Shown piece by piece: positions 6,101 to 25,837 of a stretch of DNA of 25,837 bases (position 1 is its first letter; each line of letters starts with the position of its first letter). The notes beneath the pieces were generated by a model, which had not been told where the DNA came from, searched no databases, and worked only from the letters and a program-made list of their open reading frames with translations. This DNA is from a virus. The stretch is taken from positions 24,800 through 50,636 of IMG/VR virus record IMGVR_UViG_3300037847_002725; one strand, written 5' to 3'. Both the position numbers and the translations under genes were made by a program.

Positions 6101-7990
6101 TTAACCGTTGAAACCTGAATCAGGTGATAAGTCCCCTAACGGGTCAGCGGCTTTCTCTTTTACCTTGTGAAATGACTCCAATGCTTGTTCAATTGGGGAT
6201 TTTTCATGCCCTCTTTGATGTTTAGATGCCTTTGGCGCACCAGATTGCGCTCGCTCATCTTTCACACCAGATATTCGGTTAGGTCTTGAACCATCGGTTT
6301 TGTCAGAATCACTACCACCACCTACGGGATTTAGCAAACTGCCTTTCATCATGGCTGGATTAGCCATTGCCATATTTGGGTCAGGTGTCATACCCGCTGG
6401 CATACCTTGTGGTGGCATACCTCCTGCGCCCATCTGTGGTGGCATACCCGCCATTGGTGGGCGACCACCCATCATATTTTGTCGCTGCATTGGGTTGCCA
6501 CCCCTACCCATTTGTCCCATACCTGGCATACCACCCGCTGGTGGTGGAACTTGCGGATTACCTGGTTGCGGTGGTGCTGGGTTCTTGTACACGAAGCGAA
6601 TATCCCTATCACCTTCATCTTTGAGTTCTGGTTTGAATCCGAGTTGAGCCATACGAGATGCAATGTTCACTTCCATTTCATCACGCCTCAAGCGAGTGAC
6701 TTCATCTTCTTCTTCATTCGGATACAGACTGAGTTTCCAATCTGCCACTCCCATTTCATTTAACAAACGGGGGAATAAATCACGGGTGTATATCTTTTGA
6801 CCATATTCAACTGCACGATTAGTAACTAAGATTTGCAGACCTTCGTTGCTTAGTCCACCACCCTTTCCACTATCTTGCATGAATACATTGGATACACCAT
6901 AGAATGCGGATATGCGTTGTCGTAGTTCTTCACGAACCTGTGCATATTGCATCTCATCCATTGTATCCATGAACTTAACCCACTCAACACGGCCACGACC
7001 TGTGGCAGATTCAACACCAACCTTTGGAACATAGTGTGGGTCGCGTTCCATCTTTTCTTCAACACCCTTCCAAAATGATGCCGTTGATTGTATGTTATCG
7101 GTAGTGATTGCCAAAATACCACGAGGCATTCTGCGTTTGGAATATAGCAAATACATGTAATTATCCATAGCACTCAATGTCATGGCTTGTCGCCACATTG
7201 TTGCCACTGGACTACGACCATACAACTTGGTTGGATTGAACTTGGATATGTGCAACACTTCACCTTCAAGATAGTATTGTGTTTTACCACTACCTGCCGT
7301 ATTGACAAAGTGAACATCTTGAAGTGGTAAATCACATATTTCACAATTGGTGTATTCTTCAGAATGGGTGTATGTTTTGTTTCGGTGAACGGGACATACT
7401 TGGTATCTGCCACCACGCACACCACGCTTATCAGCAACAATACGAATGAATGTAGGGTCGCCACGAACCAATTGCTTGACACGGGTGAACTCAATATCAC
7501 CTGATTCTTTATCCAAATAGTATTCCTTCTGCAAAATTAAGAATGCATCATCAACAATGTTCAAGTCAAACTCAATTTCACGAAGCACATCAAGAGCGCG
7601 CTGGTCCATAGTGTTGCGTTGTTCAAACAACCACTTTGGATACACCACTTCATCATGGTCTGGTGCTTTTACTTCACCGCCACATAATGTGCATTGGTCA
7701 ACTGCGTGTTGATATTCTTCCATGCAATCAACACACTTCTTTTGGAACTTCTTTTCCCAAAATATACCACGCCTGAATATCTCTTGCGTTAGCGTATTGA
7801 TGGTGGTTCGTAAAATAATGGATTCTTGAGTGACTGCATACAAAGCGGGTATCGTAATCCCTTGAACCAATACGGGTTCTTGAATACCACTTTTCCAAAG
7901 TGGCATTGTTGGCGCAGGGGTTTCCTTACGCTTGAATGGTTTTGTGAGTGCTTCCAAAAATCGGCCTACAGGTCCTTTTTCCTCTGGCAT
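6101..7990 (-). CDS. Portal protein with two zinc-ribbon insertions
   Basis: A 629-residue protein placed downstream of the terminase, with the layout of the phage portal family, which forms the dodecameric DNA gate at one capsid vertex. Supporting segments are VLHISKFNPTKLYGRSP (about 246-262), the helical stretch RQAMTLSAMDNYMYLLYSKRR and the clip/stem-like region around AFYGVSNVFMQDSGKGG. Two Cys clusters are inserted in the N-terminal half: C86-x2-C89 with C100-x2-C103, and C199-P-V-H202 with C216-x2-C219. These look like zinc ribbons and are unusual for portals. After about residue 470 comes a Met/Pro/Gly-rich tail, then a charged end containing SPIEQALESFHK, one copy of a motif shared with other proteins here. 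ATG at 7990 overlaps the upstream stop as TAATG. I am fairly sure of the call from order and fold-like segments, without a database search. Confidence 0.85.
   Translation of the reverse strand: MPEEKGPVGRFLEALTKPFKRKETPAPTMPLWKSGIQEPVLVQGITIPALYAVTQESIILRTTINTLTQEIFRRGIFWEKKFQKKCVDCMEEYQHAVDQCTLCGGEVKAPDHDEVVYPKWLFEQRNTMDQRALDVLREIEFDLNIVDDAFLILQKEYYLDKESGDIEFTRVKQLVRGDPTFIRIVADKRGVRGGRYQVCPVHRNKTYTHSEEYTNCEICDLPLQDVHFVNTAGSGKTQYYLEGEVLHISKFNPTKLYGRSPVATMWRQAMTLSAMDNYMYLLYSKRRMPRGILAITTDNIQSTASFWKGVEEKMERDPHYVPKVGVESATGRGRVEWVKFMDTMDEMQYAQVREELRQRISAFYGVSNVFMQDSGKGGGLSNEGLQILVTNRAVEYGQKIYTRDLFPRLLNEMGVADWKLSLYPNEEEDEVTRLRRDEMEVNIASRMAQLGFKPELKDEGDRDIRFVYKNPAPPQPGNPQVPPPAGGMPGMGQMGRGGNPMQRQNMMGGRPPMAGMPPQMGAGGMPPQGMPAGMTPDPNMAMANPAMMKGSLLNPVGGGSDSDKTDGSRPNRISGVKDERAQSGAPKASKHQRGHEKSPIEQALESFHKVKEKAADPLGDLSPDSGFNG
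6360..6560 (-). repeat. Imperfect Met-Pro-Gly repeat tract in portal tail
   Basis: On the plus strand this stretch shows repeated, degenerate copies of a GGTGGCATACC-type unit. In the portal frame they encode runs such as GGMPPQGMPAGM and GGRPPMAGMPPQMG. The tract probably encodes a flexible, disordered linker between the portal core and its charged C-terminal end. It is coding sequence, not an intergenic repeat. Confidence 0.6.
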
Positions 7991-8304
7991 TACATTCCGC
8001 CCCCACTAGGTTTCGGTCCGCCCCCAGTGAGTGCATCCTCAAGAATCTGCTTTATGCGTTCAACATCAAACAACAACCGTTCCCAATCTGCGCTACCACC
8101 AGAATCGTGTAGTTCACGCAATAATTGTGCGATTTGTTGCACATCGTCTAACAGATAGTGGGCTATACCCAATTGTTGTTTTTGGTCATACAAAGGCTTT
8201 GACTCTTCTTGTTCGGGGGGTTGCGGTTGCGCTGATTGCATTGGTGCGCCTGTTTCATCCATGTAAAACGACTCATCATTTTTGAGAACTGACCACCAAT
8301 TCAT
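7990..8304 (-). CDS. Small helical protein between the LAGLIDADG protein and portal
   Basis: The frame is open further upstream, but the supported start is ATG at 8304. It forms an ATGA overlap with the upstream stop and has GGAGG seven bases before it, giving a 104-residue protein beginning MNWWSVLKNDESFYMDETG. A Pro/Gln/Glu-rich linker (about 24-40) is followed by a long helix-rich segment (LGIAHYLLDDVQQIAQLLRE, then LLFDVERIKQILEDAL) and a Gly/Pro C-terminus. Its stop shares a base with the portal start, so it should be made together with the portal. I do not recognise the family; a small head accessory or portal partner is plausible. Confidence 0.75.
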   Translation of the reverse strand: MNWWSVLKNDESFYMDETGAPMQSAQPQPPEQEESKPLYDQKQQLGIAHYLLDDVQQIAQLLRELHDSGGSADWERLLFDVERIKQILEDALTGGGPKPSGGGM

Positions 8305-9809
8305 AGCATTGCCTCCATCTGTTCCGCTTGTATTCCAAGCCGAATCAAAGTGGGGTCGCGCCATGCTTCAACATCCTCCGCTGCTACACCCCACCCCTCA
8401 AGTAGTTCATCACCTTTCGTGTCATACCAATTATCCCATTTCACTAATTTTTCCAATTGATTCCTACGAGTTTTGGCGAGCATGCCTTTGTTTGGCGTGT
8501 CAAGATACTCCAAAACTGACGCTGCTTGATTCTTTTTCAATTTGAGATGCGGAAGCACACCTTTCAGCATAGTTCTCACATCGTCTTTGGAATAAAATTG
8601 TAGTCTATGTTGTGAGCGTTTGCTGGATTTATGAACCTTCAAATCTAGTTGAAGAACTCCACATCCAAGTGTTTTGTATAACTGTTCACAATGCACACGG
8701 CCACGCTCACCTGTGGCTACCAAACCAACACGGGGTTCACCACGCTTTGTAATAGTGATATATCCATCAGCGTCAATGAATCCAGCAGCATAAGCCCAGG
8801 GGTCTTTGATAATCAAATCACCATTTTGTTTCACCAACATCCAGTGGTTTCGCTTTGAACCTTTGACGATGCCCATTTCATCACCGTATGTTTTCATCAA
8901 ACCGCTAAGTTTGGCGGGTGTCAATTTTTTGGTTGCATATCCTTTGGATACTAAATTGCCCTGTATAGTGCGACTATCCATTTGACCATGATTGGCCAGT
9001 TCTTCAGATGCCAATGACAACCATGACATTTCAGATTTGGTTAGTGCATCCAATATGTGTAGTGATTTACTCCACATCTTTTTCGCTGCATCACGGTCAT
9101 CGTGTGCTTTGACCCAATCTTGTTTTTCAATGTCAGTCCATACATCATCGTTTTTGGATAGCATTTCAATACGATTGTTGGCATCTTCCCATTGCATACA
9201 TGCACGAACCAATGATGTTTTTCGCAACTCATGGCTTTTCATCAATGCTTTCAAATCACGGTCATTCAATCCCATAGATTTGATAGTAGTGATGTAATCC
9301 TTAGCCCAATCAATAGATGCTAACGAATTGTTAATCTCTTGTTGCTTCATCAAACGAACTGCCGTAATCAGGTCATCAATTTCGCCTTTGACCATTTTGT
9401 GTTCCCTTCGTGCATTTTTCAAATCCTTGACAATATCATGTGCAGATTTACCAAATGTGTCAAACCAACCAATGGATTTAGCCAATCCACCAGATGCTTG
9501 TTGAGGTTGTTGTGGTTGCTGACCACTTAATCCCTGTGCCATATCTTGCAGTTTCTTTTGTTGCGATTGTTGGTCATCGGGTGTATCTTTTGGTGCTTCA
9601 CTTGGGGTCAAAGAACCATCACCTTCGCTTGATGTTGGTGCATTTTCATTAGTGGTTGGTGCGCCCATGATTGATTGACCCTGTTGTGGTGGTGGGGATT
9701 TGAAGATTGGGTGTTGCATCAAATGTTTGCATATTTCAATCACTTCGGGGTGTCCGTCAATCTCAAACGGTGAATCATAAGAATCACCAATCAACATACT
9801 GCCCCACAT
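8301..9809 (-). CDS. Virion-operon protein with a C-terminal LAGLIDADG-type domain
   Basis: A 502-residue protein encoded between TerL and the portal. The N-terminal 110 residues are Pro/Gln/Ser rich and probably disordered. Residues about 125-280 are strongly helical and charged. A winged-helix-like segment follows (about 280-330, SRTIQGNLVSKGYATKKLTP), and then a LAGLIDADG motif, YAAGFIDADGYITI, at 340-353. The downstream part (KTLGCGVLQLDL, KSSKRSQHRLQFYSKDDV, MLKGVLPHLKLKKNQA) matches a single-motif LAGLIDADG homing-endonuclease domain of about 100 residues. The acidic residue of the motif is present. It is not an intein: there is no flanking Cys/Ser and His-Asn splice pair, and neither neighbour is interrupted. 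It could be an active endonuclease fused to a structural protein, or a LAGLIDADG fold kept for DNA binding. ATG 9809 is used; ATG at residue 5 has a better GGGG site. Confidence 0.8.
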   Translation of the reverse strand: MWGSMLIGDSYDSPFEIDGHPEVIEICKHLMQHPIFKSPPPQQGQSIMGAPTTNENAPTSSEGDGSLTPSEAPKDTPDDQQSQQKKLQDMAQGLSGQQPQQPQQASGGLAKSIGWFDTFGKSAHDIVKDLKNARREHKMVKGEIDDLITAVRLMKQQEINNSLASIDWAKDYITTIKSMGLNDRDLKALMKSHELRKTSLVRACMQWEDANNRIEMLSKNDDVWTDIEKQDWVKAHDDRDAAKKMWSKSLHILDALTKSEMSWLSLASEELANHGQMDSRTIQGNLVSKGYATKKLTPAKLSGLMKTYGDEMGIVKGSKRNHWMLVKQNGDLIIKDPWAYAAGFIDADGYITITKRGEPRVGLVATGERGRVHCEQLYKTLGCGVLQLDLKVHKSSKRSQHRLQFYSKDDVRTMLKGVLPHLKLKKNQAASVLEYLDTPNKGMLAKTRRNQLEKLVKWDNWYDTKGDELLEGWGVAAEDVEAWRDPTLIRLGIQAEQMEAML

Positions 9810-9813
9810 TATA

Positions 9814-11244
9814 TCACAATCCTAACACGCTTTCTGGGAATACACTTTCACCGATTTCATCCAAATCAACGATACGGTCTTGGAACTCCGTAGTCGCCCA
9901 ATGAGCAAGTGCTAATGAGATAACCATATCATCGTGTCGCCCGATGGATTCCAATTTACCTTGCTTTGACATACCAAACAAAAGCAGTTCCTGTTTCAGT
10001 TCTGCCATCATGGTTCGGGAGTTTTCATCACCCATTGGTAATACCATTTGCTCACGCTCAAACTTCAACACTAAACCCATCAACATGGATTCACGCTTTG
10101 TTTTAGATGAAATGAATGTCTTGATTGGTAAATCGGTATTGGCTCGCAATTCAGTTGCGAATACACGCTGGAAGTGGTTGGCTTCAAGTTCAATCACTTC
10201 AGGTCTGAACTTATTGTTGAGCCGTTGTATCTCCATGATTTGTGTGCGGAAGTCCATACCTTTTCGTCTGGTGATATGTACAATTTCCAGTTTGTTTGGT
10301 TCATCAGATGGTCTGCGTAAAACAGTCATCACTGTATAGTCGGCTTGTCTATCCGATGAAATGGCGGGGTCCCAGCCAATGAAGTATTGGTCATCATGGT
10401 TGCCACCTTCTTTTTCACTGTATTTACGATTGAGTAATATGTGGTCGCGTGATTCGTTTAATGCCATCACGCTTGATGGGAATAAACTAGATGCATCGTC
10501 AATTGGTTCACACAGATATTCACGGGTGAATGCAACCGCTGGCATGTCTTTACGCCTTGAATCCAATGCGTCTAAATCCCATCGTTCTGGCCATAGTGGT
10601 TCACCTTGAGCATTTATGGCGGGATATGTTTCAACCAAATAACCTGGTTTTTGTTCCAATTCCGTGTAAAGGTCAGTCGGTGTGAACGGTGTCCCTACAA
10701 TACATAGTTGTGATGTGTGGTGCAAACATGGGACTAGAACTTCATAGAACCATGAAGCAACACGCTTCAATTCGGTATCAGTTGTCCCCCATAGAATGTC
10801 ATCACACAATACAATGTGAGGGTGCGCTCCACGCACACCACCGCCAACCGATTTGGCAGTGATACGAGAACCGTTTGTAAATCCAAAATATGTTTTAGCC
10901 CATGCATCACGCTTCTTCATTTTTGCTAACATGGGTATGCTTTCAATCATATCATTGAGAAAACGCATATGCCGAATGGTCTGGTCAAGACTGTGGCTGA
11001 AAATCATAGCGTCAGTTCCAGGTGTGAAACACACCTTCCATAATAGATAACTGAGAAAAGCCACTGACTTTCCGTGGTCCCGAGATGCTTTGACGCAATA
11101 TCGGTTATGGGTCATTAGATTTTCAACCCACTTAGCGTGGTGGTTGGCTAATTGCCAACCGCAAATATCTTCAAAGAAAAACTGAAAGTCTTTCTTGCAC
11201 ATTTCAAAGTCTATCTCTTGGATGACTTCTTCCAGATTTGACAA
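9814..11244 (-). CDS. terL: Terminase large subunit (TerL), packaging ATPase and nuclease
   Basis: This is the motor that pumps and cuts viral DNA at the portal. The N-terminal ATPase has a Walker-A-type ASRDHGKS (residues 53-60), a Walker B strand IVLCDDIL (144-151, with D148 and D149) and a coupling-type CIVGTPFTPTDLY (181-193). The C-terminal RNase H-like nuclease shows acidic residues in FIGWDPAISSDRQADY (D292), IELEANHF (E354) and RHDDMVISLALAHW (D438, D439). The length of 476 is normal. The frame closes with TGA immediately upstream, so the start must be TTG at 11244, which GGTGGTGA supports six to nine bases before. Upstream lies the low-complexity protein (5 bp gap); downstream is the LAGLIDADG protein. 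All catalytic positions look intact. Confidence 0.95.
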   Translation of the reverse strand: MSNLEEVIQEIDFEMCKKDFQFFFEDICGWQLANHHAKWVENLMTHNRYCVKASRDHGKSVAFLSYLLWKVCFTPGTDAMIFSHSLDQTIRHMRFLNDMIESIPMLAKMKKRDAWAKTYFGFTNGSRITAKSVGGGVRGAHPHIVLCDDILWGTTDTELKRVASWFYEVLVPCLHHTSQLCIVGTPFTPTDLYTELEQKPGYLVETYPAINAQGEPLWPERWDLDALDSRRKDMPAVAFTREYLCEPIDDASSLFPSSVMALNESRDHILLNRKYSEKEGGNHDDQYFIGWDPAISSDRQADYTVMTVLRRPSDEPNKLEIVHITRRKGMDFRTQIMEIQRLNNKFRPEVIELEANHFQRVFATELRANTDLPIKTFISSKTKRESMLMGLVLKFEREQMVLPMGDENSRTMMAELKQELLLFGMSKQGKLESIGRHDDMVISLALAHWATTEFQDRIVDLDEIGESVFPESVLGL

Positions 11245-22162: not shown

Positions 22163-22168
22163 GTGTAT

Positions 22169-22513
22169 ATGGGAAGTCAGCCTCGTTTATCAAGTTATAT
22201 GAACTACAAACCCTGTGGGCTACTCATGGGGGAGTTATCGCCAGCCGCTAAGAAGCGGAAAAAGGAGTATGATACGAAGTATGAATCATCCCCTGAGCGT
22301 GTCAAATATCGTGAAGAATTGAATCAAGAACGAAGGAAACGAGGCATATATGGTGAAGGCGGACCTGATATGAGCCACACTAAAGACGGCAACATGGTTC
22401 CTGAATCACCACATACAAATCGCGCTCGCCATTTCAAAGAACGGGGGACACTGAAATCTTCTTCACCCATTGACCAAGCGTTTTCACTTTTGAAAGGTCA
22501 ATTGAACCAATGA
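22169..22513 (+). CDS. Small HNH-like basic protein with the SPIDQAF motif at its end
   Basis: Plus-strand gene, 114 residues from ATG 22169; GTG 22163, ATG 22199 and ATG 22226 are other possible starts and none has a clear ribosome site. A basic helical part (SPAAKKRKKEYDTKYE; SPERVKYREELNQERRKRG) is followed by GGPDMSHTKDGNMVPESP and then NRARHF. The K-rich helix followed by D-x-x-H-x-x-D-G-N...NR resembles the small phage HNH-like family usually written D-x-x-H-x-D-G-N...N-x-R, with one extra residue. Nuclease activity is uncertain because the usual Asn and second His are not clear. The final residues SPIDQAFSLLKG (22463-22495) nearly repeat the end of the gene at the right edge. The 3' end overlaps the convergent lyase gene by 80 bp. 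Confidence 0.75.
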   Translation: MGSQPRLSSYMNYKPCGLLMGELSPAAKKRKKEYDTKYESSPERVKYREELNQERRKRGIYGEGGPDMSHTKDGNMVPESPHTNRARHFKERGTLKSSSPIDQAFSLLKGQLNQ

Positions 22514-23300
22514 TGGGTATATCGTTTGACGATGCCCACGATACCAATTCTTCTGTTGCCAAGTTAGCACCCGAACCTGGTGCAAATGGGCAACCACCCA
22601 ATCCACCAATGCTGGCATCAAACTCACGAATACCACTGTCATATGCGCTTTGCACATTCCCTATCAGTGAATCACCATGTTCATTGTGATGCAAATGAAT
22701 TGCCCATGTGGTGTATATGCCTTTAGTCAAACTCATCACATGTTCAATTGATTCTTTGGTCGCAAGACCTGATGTATCAGATAACACAACTGTTGAACCA
22801 ATCAATGCACATTGCTCTAACACCATTCGCATTTTTTCATCATCACATTGTCCGTCAATCGGACAACCAAATGCATTTGAGATATACACACGAATGTTAT
22901 TCTTGTCAATACCATACAACATACTGCGATACGATGCCAATAACACATTCAACGACGAATTGAAATTATTTTTGTTGAATGATTCGGAAGGTGAAAGGCA
23001 TACATTGAACTTCTTTGCACCAACTGACTTTGCACGAATCAATCCCCTTTCGTTTGGCACTAACACACTGAAATTGCCATTCAAGTGTGCAATTTGTTGA
23101 TACACTTCGGCACTGTTCGCCATGTTTGGAACATATCGTGGATGAACAAAACTGCCGACTTCAATGTTGTCAATGCCAGCATTATACAAATCGTTTATCA
23201 TTTGCACTTTGTCAGATAACGACCAATCAGTTTTCGCTGCTTGAATACCATCACGAGGGCCGACTTCAAAAATCGTGATTCCCTTCACGATACCACTCAC
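22434..23300 (-). CDS. 3-hydroxy-3-methylglutaryl-CoA lyase-like DRE-TIM enzyme
   Basis: This protein matches HMG-CoA lyase, which splits HMG-CoA into acetyl-CoA and acetoacetate in leucine and ketone-body metabolism using a divalent metal in a TIM barrel. With GTG 23300 as start (288 residues), expected active-site residues are in place: R16 and D17 in FEVGPRDGIQ, E47 in IEVGSFVHP, H202 and H204 in IHLHHNEHG, C237 in GGLGGCPFAPG and N246 in GANLATEE. Spacings agree well with the human enzyme. The frame is open to GTG 23336, but GTG 23300 overlaps the stop of the 53-residue gene as GTGA and has AGAGG eight bases upstream. The barrel end is short (GSIDLSKVKTLGQWVKKIS) and overlaps a convergent gene. 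A related DRE-TIM lyase acting on another acyl-CoA is possible. It appears functional, and it is surprising next to virion genes. Confidence 0.9.
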   Translation of the reverse strand: MSGIVKGITIFEVGPRDGIQAAKTDWSLSDKVQMINDLYNAGIDNIEVGSFVHPRYVPNMANSAEVYQQIAHLNGNFSVLVPNERGLIRAKSVGAKKFNVCLSPSESFNKNNFNSSLNVLLASYRSMLYGIDKNNIRVYISNAFGCPIDGQCDDEKMRMVLEQCALIGSTVVLSDTSGLATKESIEHVMSLTKGIYTTWAIHLHHNEHGDSLIGNVQSAYDSGIREFDASIGGLGGCPFAPGSGANLATEELVSWASSNDIPIIGSIDLSKVKTLGQWVKKISVSPVL

Positions 23301-23458
23301 CGCTTGAACCTCTGCTCGCCAAGCCCTTCCCAACACATCCTGTCAAGTTCTTCTTGTGATTCAAAAATAATGATGTCGGTTTCATTTGTAAAATCCATGA
23401 AATAGATTGAACTAAAACCTGCTATGAAAGCGAGAATAAATGCAATCGTTAGCCACAT
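23297..23458 (-). CDS. 53-residue single-span membrane protein coupled to the lyase
   Basis: A short frame from ATG 23458 to TGA 23297. It encodes an N-terminal hydrophobic helix (MWLTIAFILAFIAGFSSIYF, a signal anchor) followed by an acidic then basic tail (IIIFESQEELDRMCWEGLG, ending QRFKR). The stop overlaps the lyase GTG as GTGA, and the lyase ribosome site lies within its last codons, so translation of the lyase probably depends on it. It fills the 26-bp-flanked gap between the 603-residue gene and the lyase, which otherwise would be unexplained. There is no clear ribosome site of its own. No family is recognised; similar small signal-anchored proteins occur in phage operons. Confidence 0.65.
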   Translation of the reverse strand: MWLTIAFILAFIAGFSSIYFMDFTNETDIIIFESQEELDRMCWEGLGEQRFKR

Positions 23459-23484: not shown

Positions 23485-25296
23485 TTAAACCTTTCTGCTT
23501 TTCAGTAAAGAATCCCACGCAATATCCATTGGTTCACTCAATGTGAAACCAGTTTCCTCATTGAACGGTATTCCGTAAAATGTTGGGCGACTTTGTAATG
23601 TTCCACCATGCCCACTTTGAACCCATGTATCTCCGTGTTGCTGCGCCATCGTGTGGCTTGCAGTTGGAATATCCTCTCTATTGTAGTCATGTCGGTCTGG
23701 GTCGCTATCAACCCAGAACCTACGCTCAAGAACTGGTGCATTTTCAAGTTCTTCCATGTGTTCTTGTAATGCTTTTCCTTCTTCTCCTGACAATTGTAAA
23801 TTACCACGAACTTGAATCTCACCATCTTCATCAATGAAGTATTCATGTTCCATGTCATCTAAATGACCACGCCTACCAGCCTCTTCCAATACATTATCCA
23901 TTGGTTTTTTGACATCAACAAAGCCACCGCTTTCTCTATCCAATGCTGATAATCCCATTTGAGCCATTTCTCTAATCATTTCATTGCGGTGGTTTTCATC
24001 AACTGAATCCATGAATCTATCCATGTTGATTGTTCCTGCTTGTATATCTTCCCACAGTTCTGGATTTTCCGCTATCCATTCTTCCCATGTTCGTGGTTCA
24101 TGTGGGTATGCTTGTCCCAATGGTCTAGTGAAATCTTCTTGGTCTCTTCCACGATATGTACGACCTGCAACCCTACGAGCCAATTCCACTGGCGCACGGG
24201 CAATTCGTGGTGGCAATCTTGCACCACTTGGGTCTAGTTCATCAGTATCCATCAATAACGAACCTGGATGGTATGTGCGGGATTCATCACGCTCATTCAT
24301 GTAAATACGCCTTGCTCTTGCTTCCAATTTGTCCCGTTCATATTTTTCACGGGCAAGTTTGTTTGCCCTACGAGCAGCATCCCGTGTAGCCATTCCTGCC
24401 GTTCCTGTTTTACCAGCAAGACCTGAATGCGGTGCATCACCTTGAGTTCCGAACTGTCCTCGCGCTCGTCTTGCACCTTCGCTTAATTTTGGTCTTGATT
24501 CACGCTTCGGACCTTTCCAACCTTGAAAACCACCTGCTCTGCTGGATAATCTATCCATAGCCCGTTCTTCATCGGTTGCATCTTCGGGTTCGTCATCCCA
24601 ATCTAATTTGAAAAGAATATCTATGAGATTTTGAGATTTCAATAGACTGAAAGCCATATCCATTGGTTCTCCAGCCATAAACATGTCATCATCACCTCCG
24701 AAGTCAGTTCCCTCACAGTCCATCCATTCTTTATACACTTGCACTGCTGTTTGAGCCATAATTGGTGGCATCTCGCCTTGATGTGTTGTTGCACTTTGTT
24801 TTACGAACATTTTGAAGTCGCCACAGTCCATTGAATTGATAATCCTTGCTTTTTCATCATGCACGGGTTTCATTTGGTCATTGTAGTGCTTTTCAATATC
24901 GGCAACCGCTTCTTGACGGTCTGCTTCAATTTCTTCAGGGCTAAACATGTATTCGCCTGTAATTCCATAAGCCTTCTCATTCATCTCTTGGACTTCATCA
25001 AAAAATGCGTCAAGACCCGTACCATCATGGTATTCATCTTTGGCTTCTTGAATCAACTCATCAAGCCTTGACCGAATCCAACGCTCTTGACCCTTTAGCC
25101 ATGTTTCTTTGGCATTGTCGCAACAATCTTGGTCATTTTCACCTTCGGATTTTGGTTTGGTGTCATAATCACCATATGAAAACTGATACATCGTTTGTTC
25201 GGGGTTTTCCATCATCAATGTTGGTTCTTGACTAGGCACACCAGGTTCACGGAAAGCCCAATCAGGTTTTGTGTCATCCCAGCGTTCATCTGGCAT
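23485..25296 (-). CDS. Large acidic protein with two copies of the PMDxA motif
   Basis: A 603-residue acidic, mostly helical protein starting at ATG 25296, overlapping the upstream gene by 11 bp. Residues about 60-150 are charged helices (LDELIQEAKDEYHDG; EEIEADRQEAVADIEKHYND). At about 209-220 is GEPMDMAFSLLK (24637-24672). A basic Arg/Gly-rich stretch follows (about 245-330, RRARGQFGTQGDAPHSG; ARRANKLAREKYERDKLEAR), then a second acidic helical half. The very end, SEPMDIAWDSLLKSRKV, repeats the motif (23500-23538). No catalytic signature, zinc site or membrane segment is visible. It is likely a structural or morphogenesis protein, judging by size, charge pattern and the motif shared with the portal and others. 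Confidence 0.78.
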   Translation of the reverse strand: MPDERWDDTKPDWAFREPGVPSQEPTLMMENPEQTMYQFSYGDYDTKPKSEGENDQDCCDNAKETWLKGQERWIRSRLDELIQEAKDEYHDGTGLDAFFDEVQEMNEKAYGITGEYMFSPEEIEADRQEAVADIEKHYNDQMKPVHDEKARIINSMDCGDFKMFVKQSATTHQGEMPPIMAQTAVQVYKEWMDCEGTDFGGDDDMFMAGEPMDMAFSLLKSQNLIDILFKLDWDDEPEDATDEERAMDRLSSRAGGFQGWKGPKRESRPKLSEGARRARGQFGTQGDAPHSGLAGKTGTAGMATRDAARRANKLAREKYERDKLEARARRIYMNERDESRTYHPGSLLMDTDELDPSGARLPPRIARAPVELARRVAGRTYRGRDQEDFTRPLGQAYPHEPRTWEEWIAENPELWEDIQAGTINMDRFMDSVDENHRNEMIREMAQMGLSALDRESGGFVDVKKPMDNVLEEAGRRGHLDDMEHEYFIDEDGEIQVRGNLQLSGEEGKALQEHMEELENAPVLERRFWVDSDPDRHDYNREDIPTASHTMAQQHGDTWVQSGHGGTLQSRPTFYGIPFNEETGFTLSEPMDIAWDSLLKSRKV

Positions 25297-25837
25297 GGCT
25301 ATACCCCTTTATGAGTGCAAATGCTTGGTCAATAGGGGACATTGACTTCAACATCTTTTGGAATCGTAAATCTTCAATCCAATGTGGGTCATCAAGTTCA
25401 ATCAACATGCCTTCATCGTCAGTTAGCGGTAAAGGTTGTTGTGGCCGACCCGCTTGACGCGCTCTGGTCGGTTCAGTGTGATTGTATGCAATTCTTCGCT
25501 GCAATTCTTTTGCTGCTAGTTCATTTTTCTCTGGATTATTCAAATCACCTTCATCGGCACTGGATTCTTCGCCACCACCGAATAAGTTTGGTAATTCTTC
25601 ACTGGATTCTTGATTTGTTTGTCGGCCACCACGAGTTCCACGATGCGCTGGGATTTTTCGTGTAATTTTTCGTGGTGCGCGACCTTCTCGCATTGCTGCC
25701 ATGTCCTCATGCATCTGTTCTTCAATACGCGACTGTTCTGGAGTGACTGGACCTCGTGGAATTGGTAAATTGCCCATTGCACGGGCTTGAGTTGCTTCTT
25801 CATTGCTCAATCTGCGCGCTTCACGGATTTCCTCAAG
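25286..25837 (-). CDS. Acidic protein of unknown function, 5' end beyond right edge
   Basis: The frame is open to the right window edge. A TTG at 25810 could serve as start, but the nine codons before it continue a charged helix (LEEIREARRLSNEEATQARA), so the true start is probably outside the window. About 184 residues are visible. The middle is basic then acidic and probably disordered (RGTRGGRQTNQESSEELP). LPNLFGGGEESSADE resembles LPDLFGGGE of the giant protein. The C-terminus, SPIDQAFALIKGYSHAR, carries the shared helical motif (25307-25339). Its stop lies inside the next gene. Probably a virion or morphogenesis component, by association. Confidence 0.72.
   Translation of the reverse strand, partial: LEEIREARRLSNEEATQARAMGNLPIPRGPVTPEQSRIEEQMHEDMAAMREGRAPRKITRKIPAHRGTRGGRQTNQESSEELPNLFGGGEESSADEGDLNNPEKNELAAKELQRRIAYNHTEPTRARQAGRPQQPLPLTDDEGMLIELDDPHWIEDLRFQKMLKSMSPIDQAFALIKGYSHAR

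Follow-up and report, generated by a model that had tools for sequence, protein, structure and literature searches.

The window analysed here, a viral DNA stretch of 25,837 nucleotides, encodes what we interpret, with a probability of about 0.6, as a functional, virus-adapted HMG-CoA-lyase-type enzyme of a magrovirus-like archaeal virus, produced late and supplying acetyl-CoA. Its activity, substrate, host, late expression and metabolic purpose are deduced from what the sequence offers directly, namely the gene, its active-site residues, a predicted fold, a clade, a signature of selection, a genomic position and an overlap with a neighboring gene.

Lyase gene and assembly

The window corresponds to G000:24800-50636, part of a 64,422-bp IMG/VR record, and is one gap-free contig of the scaffold. 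Runs of 10 N at G000:24790-24799 and 50637-50646 border it exactly. A separate assembly of the same virus, IMGVR_UViG_3300037961_002468 (110,196 bp), is 99.6-99.9% identical to G000 and aligns with it in two blocks that meet across the record ends in circularly permuted order, as expected of a circularly permuted genome. The lyase region contains zero N runs in both the window and this second record. The relative L044/G009, whose terminase is 90% identical, displays the same order of membrane-protein ORF, lyase, convergent 104-aa gene, C66 and C5 genes. The second assembly (>99.6% identical) and the syntenic relative L044 rule out a chimeric assembly, and the region has no assembly problem. 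The best start codon of the lyase is GTG 23300, which fits exactly the residue numbers R16, D17, E47, H202, H204, C237 and N246; a start at the upstream GTG 23336, giving an ORF of 300 aa (22434-23336, minus strand), is a less likely possibility.

Table 1. Coordinates of the lyase gene, its neighbors and recurrent sequence features (window positions unless a locus is named).
Feature	Position	Strand	Remarks
HMG-CoA-lyase-like DRE-TIM enzyme	22434..23300	-	288 aa from GTG 23300
53-aa single-pass membrane protein	23297..23458	-	N-terminal TM and acidic tail IIIFESQEELDRMCWEGLGEQRFKR
GTGA stop/start overlap, 4 bases	23297..23300	-	membrane-protein stop / lyase start
Convergent 116-aa gene	22163..22513	+	3' end overlaps lyase 3' end by 80 bases; C-terminal SPIDQAFSLLKG peptide
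237-aa gene, cluster C66	21449..22162	-	common to syntenic relatives L044 and L025
603-aa gene of unknown function, virion module	23485..25296	-	upstream of membrane protein
Terminase large subunit	9814..11244	-	virus marker
Portal protein	6101..7990	-	nearest named relatives haloviruses HCTV-5/HVTV-1
PIDxAWxLLK-like peptide	22475-22510	+	also in other G001 and G009 genes
PIDxAWxLLK-like peptide	23488-23530	-
PIDxAWxLLK-like peptide	25289-25330	-
About 90-aa family (C29)	L003:5554-5832; L022:5551-5832; L047:7001-7249; L049:4185-4460; L061:3698-3952; L079:4867-5133

Family membership and active site

The original prediction of a complete HMG-CoA-lyase-like ORF was borne out by domain models, PDB matches and a full-length alignment. 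The protein harbors a full-length Pfam HMGL-like domain (PF00682, E 1.3e-25, residues 20-287), and the NCBIfam HMG-CoA lyase model is matched by 50/50 family members. Against the subfamily model NF004283, the window protein scores 225.9 bits (E 6e-67), below the curated cut-off of 246, and a member of the clade from G016 lies above it with 257.9 bits. Its sequence matches in the PDB are HMG-CoA lyases (E 1e-44 to 1e-40), plus one weak homocitrate synthase. An AlphaFold model computed from a 50-sequence alignment reached a pLDDT of 95.3 and a pTM of 0.93. When this model was searched against PDB folds, matches 1-14 were all HMG-CoA lyases with a TM score of about 0.9 (2cw6, 1ydo, 6nds), followed by isopropylmalate synthases at about 0.75; homocitrate and aldolase structures also ranked behind.

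The equivalents of human R41, D42, E72, Y167, D204, H233, H235, C266 and N275 are invariant among 80 viral sequences, the sole exception being the N-terminal positions of one contig, which is cut there. All the catalytic residues named beforehand are therefore present and kept across the viral alignment wherever there is sequence; we take their roles to be those established for the human enzyme. In the family-wide alignment, the HLH motif of the viral proteins corresponds to human H233/H235 and is invariant across viral sequences. An apparent loss of the second metal-binding His, seen with three viral and five PDB sequences in which the HxH was out of register, was overturned by the 80-sequence viral alignment. 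Around this site, the HxH of the HxHDTxG motif is kept, whereas the T (99% in cellular sequences) and the G (94%) are lost throughout the viral clade; the D-T-x-G segment following HxH is nearly invariant in bacterial enzymes. The viral C-loop signature, GGxGGCPF[I/V]xGSGxNL, also differs from that of cellular enzymes, and the equivalent of human E279 is an Asn in 36 of the 80 viral sequences.

Together, the conserved residues and the predicted fold strongly support a metal-dependent retro-Claisen cleavage by the viral lyase. A divalent metal would most likely be bound by D17, H202, H204 and N246, and R16 and the mobile C237 loop would act in the cleavage of HMG-CoA or a close 3-hydroxy-3-carboxymethyl-acyl-CoA, to give acetyl-CoA and acetoacetate (or its homologue). 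HMG-CoA is a likely rather than a certain substrate, as the viral enzymes have a remodelled loop behind the metal site; with a score under the curated cut-off and the D-T-x-G segment lost, the window protein may act on a different acyl-CoA.

A virus-only branch of lyases

Searching IMG/VR with a mixed viral/PDB alignment retrieved 207 relatives, a count that depends on exact peptide patterns, and the best 80 of the 207 were kept for comparison. Apart from a near-identical copy from the same virus, these 80 share 40-65% identity with the window lyase; among the matches listed, bacterial loci reach at best 37-40%. The genome-contig matches listed were from bacteria only, with no archaeal cellular lyase, and the plasmid records listed were also bacterial. 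In a tree of 89 sequences, obtained by a short search without bootstrap and containing no archaeal cellular HMG-CoA lyase and no Klosneuvirus protein, the viral lyases occupy one side of a branch with an SH-aLRT value of 100. On this phylogeny, they are one large virus-only branch, apart from the bacterial HMG-CoA lyases compared. The dN/dS values of viral lyase pairs (unsaturated pairs only) range from 0.03 to 0.30, which indicates that the gene is intact, as predicted, and actively maintained under purifying selection. Three records of the phage collection matched the lyase, two Acinetobacter phage entries and one unannotated contig, with no magrovirus reference genome among them. The two entries, CAKLQH020000001.1 and CAKLQF020000001.1 (Acinetobacter phage MD-2021a, 329-379 kb), have bacterial-type leuA/accC under the lyase match and may be bacterial sequence. 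Neither the lyase nor the membrane protein nor the approximately 90-aa neighbor (L003 member) has a PHROGs family.

The lyase is an accessory auxiliary metabolic gene of a cellular family, not a core gene. It is absent from all 21 contigs, 25-103 kb long (one of 103 kb), whose terminases are nearest; as a control, the lyase model found it in 5/5 lyase-bearing genomes and 0/6 lyase-free genomes. The view of an unusual viral auxiliary metabolic gene held for its auxiliary nature, HMGCL being listed for magroviruses (PMC10160649), but not for its rarity, given the 207 IMG/VR matches. The lyase of G002 is 64% identical to that of the window, and only one other window gene among those compared is common to both (33%), so that the lyase has probably moved between virus lineages. 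G002 (L003) belongs to a second lyase-bearing group with G003 (L022), G020, G022, G024 and G025, in which the terminase is distant or undetected (37-39% where found) and the chaperonin is a much weaker match to the Cpn60 model. The GC content of G002 is about 34.5%, and the lyases of L003 and L022 are localized outside the virion module. This second group suggests a transfer between virus families.

Membrane protein and neighboring genes

The predicted GTGA overlap between the lyase and a small membrane protein was confirmed (23300-23297), and similar 4-base overlaps are found in L046, L047, L061, L079, L093 and L094. A profile built from the 53-aa protein and its counterparts at other loci describes a real family, with an N-terminal transmembrane segment followed by an acidic tail of the VVIFxSEEELQxLCWDGLR type. 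The membrane protein touches the 5' side of the lyase in the window, L044, L093 and L094, and its 3' side in L046, L047, L057, L061 and L079, in both cases usually through a 4-base overlap. Kilobases separate it from the lyase in L081, L088, L091 and L099, and it is present in the lyase-free relatives G053 and G056. Because of these four distant loci and two lyase-free relatives, the partnership is recurrent, not obligatory, and the idea that the protein is a dedicated lyase anchor is weakened.

As predicted, the lyase is placed among virion genes. At about 24 loci, it lies on the same strand as the terminase or portal gene and at most three genes away, and this position suggests that it is probably expressed late. 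Synthesis would occur with the virion genes, partly through a probable translational coupling to the 53-aa membrane protein. In many relatives, the lyase sits in the terminase-portal interval; in the window, this interval contains a gene (8301-9809, minus strand) whose C-terminal region resembles an HNH endonuclease (phrog_5046, E 1e-10). The G009 homologue of the 116-aa gene (104 aa) is likewise convergent and overlaps the lyase end. A family of approximately 90 aa (C29, LGxxIDEDxQxMSRxELCxYIE...FWxLDSTxKIRFG) recurs near the viral lyase at nine loci. A PIDxAWxLLK-like peptide recurs at one end (N- or C-terminal) of proteins that otherwise have no relation to each other, in 8 of the 112 predicted G001 proteins and 7 of the 86 in G009; from shuffled termini, about 0.2 proteins would be expected in G001 versus the 8 observed. 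The peptide might serve as a tag for capsid targeting or for processing.

Virus identity and host

The prediction of an archaeal virus agrees with the presence of TFB, a thermosome and a halovirus-like portal. G001 encodes TFB, a group II chaperonin (thermosome), PolB, an RFC-like ATPase and an ERCC4 nuclease, among others, and the portal is 29-30% identical to those of HCTV-5/HVTV-1, which indicates relatedness to tailed haloviruses. Among lyase-bearing contigs longer than 60 kb, a related terminase is found in 33/36 and a Cpn60/TCP1 chaperonin in 33/37. The Magrovirales (Caudoviricetes, ICTV) are described as tailed viruses with genomes of about 90-110 kb, a PolB-based replisome, and a virion module oriented opposite to the replication module (PMC12999244). 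The 110,196-bp record corresponds to this description in size, PolB, RFC-like ATPase, terminase, portal and modules on opposite strands. Judging from these genes, the virus is very probably an archaeal tailed virus of marine archaea and is consistent with magroviruses; its host is probably a Poseidoniales archaeon.

Proposed function and alternatives

HMG-CoA is the point at which archaeal membrane-lipid synthesis is entered and leucine breakdown is left. The enzyme would supply acetyl-CoA by draining a leucine-degradation/mevalonate intermediate. Leucine catabolism for acetyl-CoA is the simplest purpose and follows the annotation in the magrovirus gene list (PMC10160649). The Pfam scan of G001 proteins, which turned up no further enzyme of CoA, leucine or mevalonate metabolism, speaks against this reading.

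The HMG-CoA name would be misleading if the protein were a DRE-TIM lyase or aldolase with the same fold and metal chemistry but another substrate, either a different acyl-CoA or a non-CoA aldol. The separate clade on its long branch, the lost D-T-x-G segment, the changed C-loop, the NF004283 score of the window protein and the frequent Asn at the E279 position all point in this direction. However, the full HMG-CoA-lyase catalytic set is kept, including the equivalents of C266, Y167 and D204, and both sequence and fold are far closer to HMG-CoA lyase than to any other DRE-TIM family; we regard another substrate as possible but rather doubtful. A decayed or chimeric fragment of a host gene can be envisaged as well, since host contamination can account for metabolic genes in viral contigs. 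This explanation is refuted by the second assembly, the syntenic relative, the invariant active site, purifying selection and the 80 viral relatives in one clade, and its probability is negligible.

The lyase might also be an anti-host weapon that destroys HMG-CoA late in infection and starves isoprenoid lipid synthesis, with the coupled small protein anchoring it to the membrane. In favor of such a role, archaea build their lipids from HMG-CoA through mevalonate, the lyase is probably late, and its small membrane partner recurs on either side of it. The membrane protein is nevertheless no dedicated anchor, because it also occurs without the lyase and at a distance from it, and we consider this anti-host role quite unlikely. 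That a late HMG-CoA-consuming lyase of the virus's own, together with the membrane protein, stops the synthesis of isoprenoid lipids or reshapes the host membrane ahead of egress is similarly improbable; a diversion of HMG-CoA away from the making of these lipids is possible. The existence of a widespread, selected, virus-only branch of the HMG-CoA-consuming enzyme points to control of the HMG-CoA node by viruses of archaea that abound in the ocean, probably late in infection. The role of the viral lyase is testable through its family signature and its recurring membrane partner.

Comparison with known systems

The window enzyme shares with HMG-CoA lyases (HMGCL/MvaB; 2cw6, 1ydo, 6nds) a TIM barrel, the R, D, E, HxH, C, N and Y set and a full-length alignment. 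It differs from them by an identity of only about 32-35%, its placement in a separate viral clade, the absent D-T-x-G and its score below the curated cut-off. The DmpG/BphI aldolases and the isopropylmalate and homocitrate synthases (DRE-TIM) have the same D + HxH metal site and barrel fold, whereas their sequence and fold match the viral lyase far more weakly and, to our knowledge, they are devoid of the HMG-CoA-lyase cysteine loop. Among viral structure models, the only comparable one is the HMGL-like protein of Klosneuvirus KNV1 (A0A1V0SKU2), with a similar fold (TM 0.90); it belongs to a giant virus of eukaryotes, is 29% identical and stands outside our tree. Xu et al. (2023) listed HMGCL among the auxiliary metabolic genes of magroviruses, which are Marine Group II archaeal viruses, and assigned it to leucine degradation (PMC10160649). 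The window lyase has the same enzyme annotation and very likely belongs to the same gene family as this HMGCL. In that gene list, HMGCL appears as an annotation, with no clade, no analysis of the active site, no placement in a late module and no membrane partner. HMGCL in the magrovirus gene list was thus already known, and what is added here is that the viral lyases compared form one large virus-only branch.
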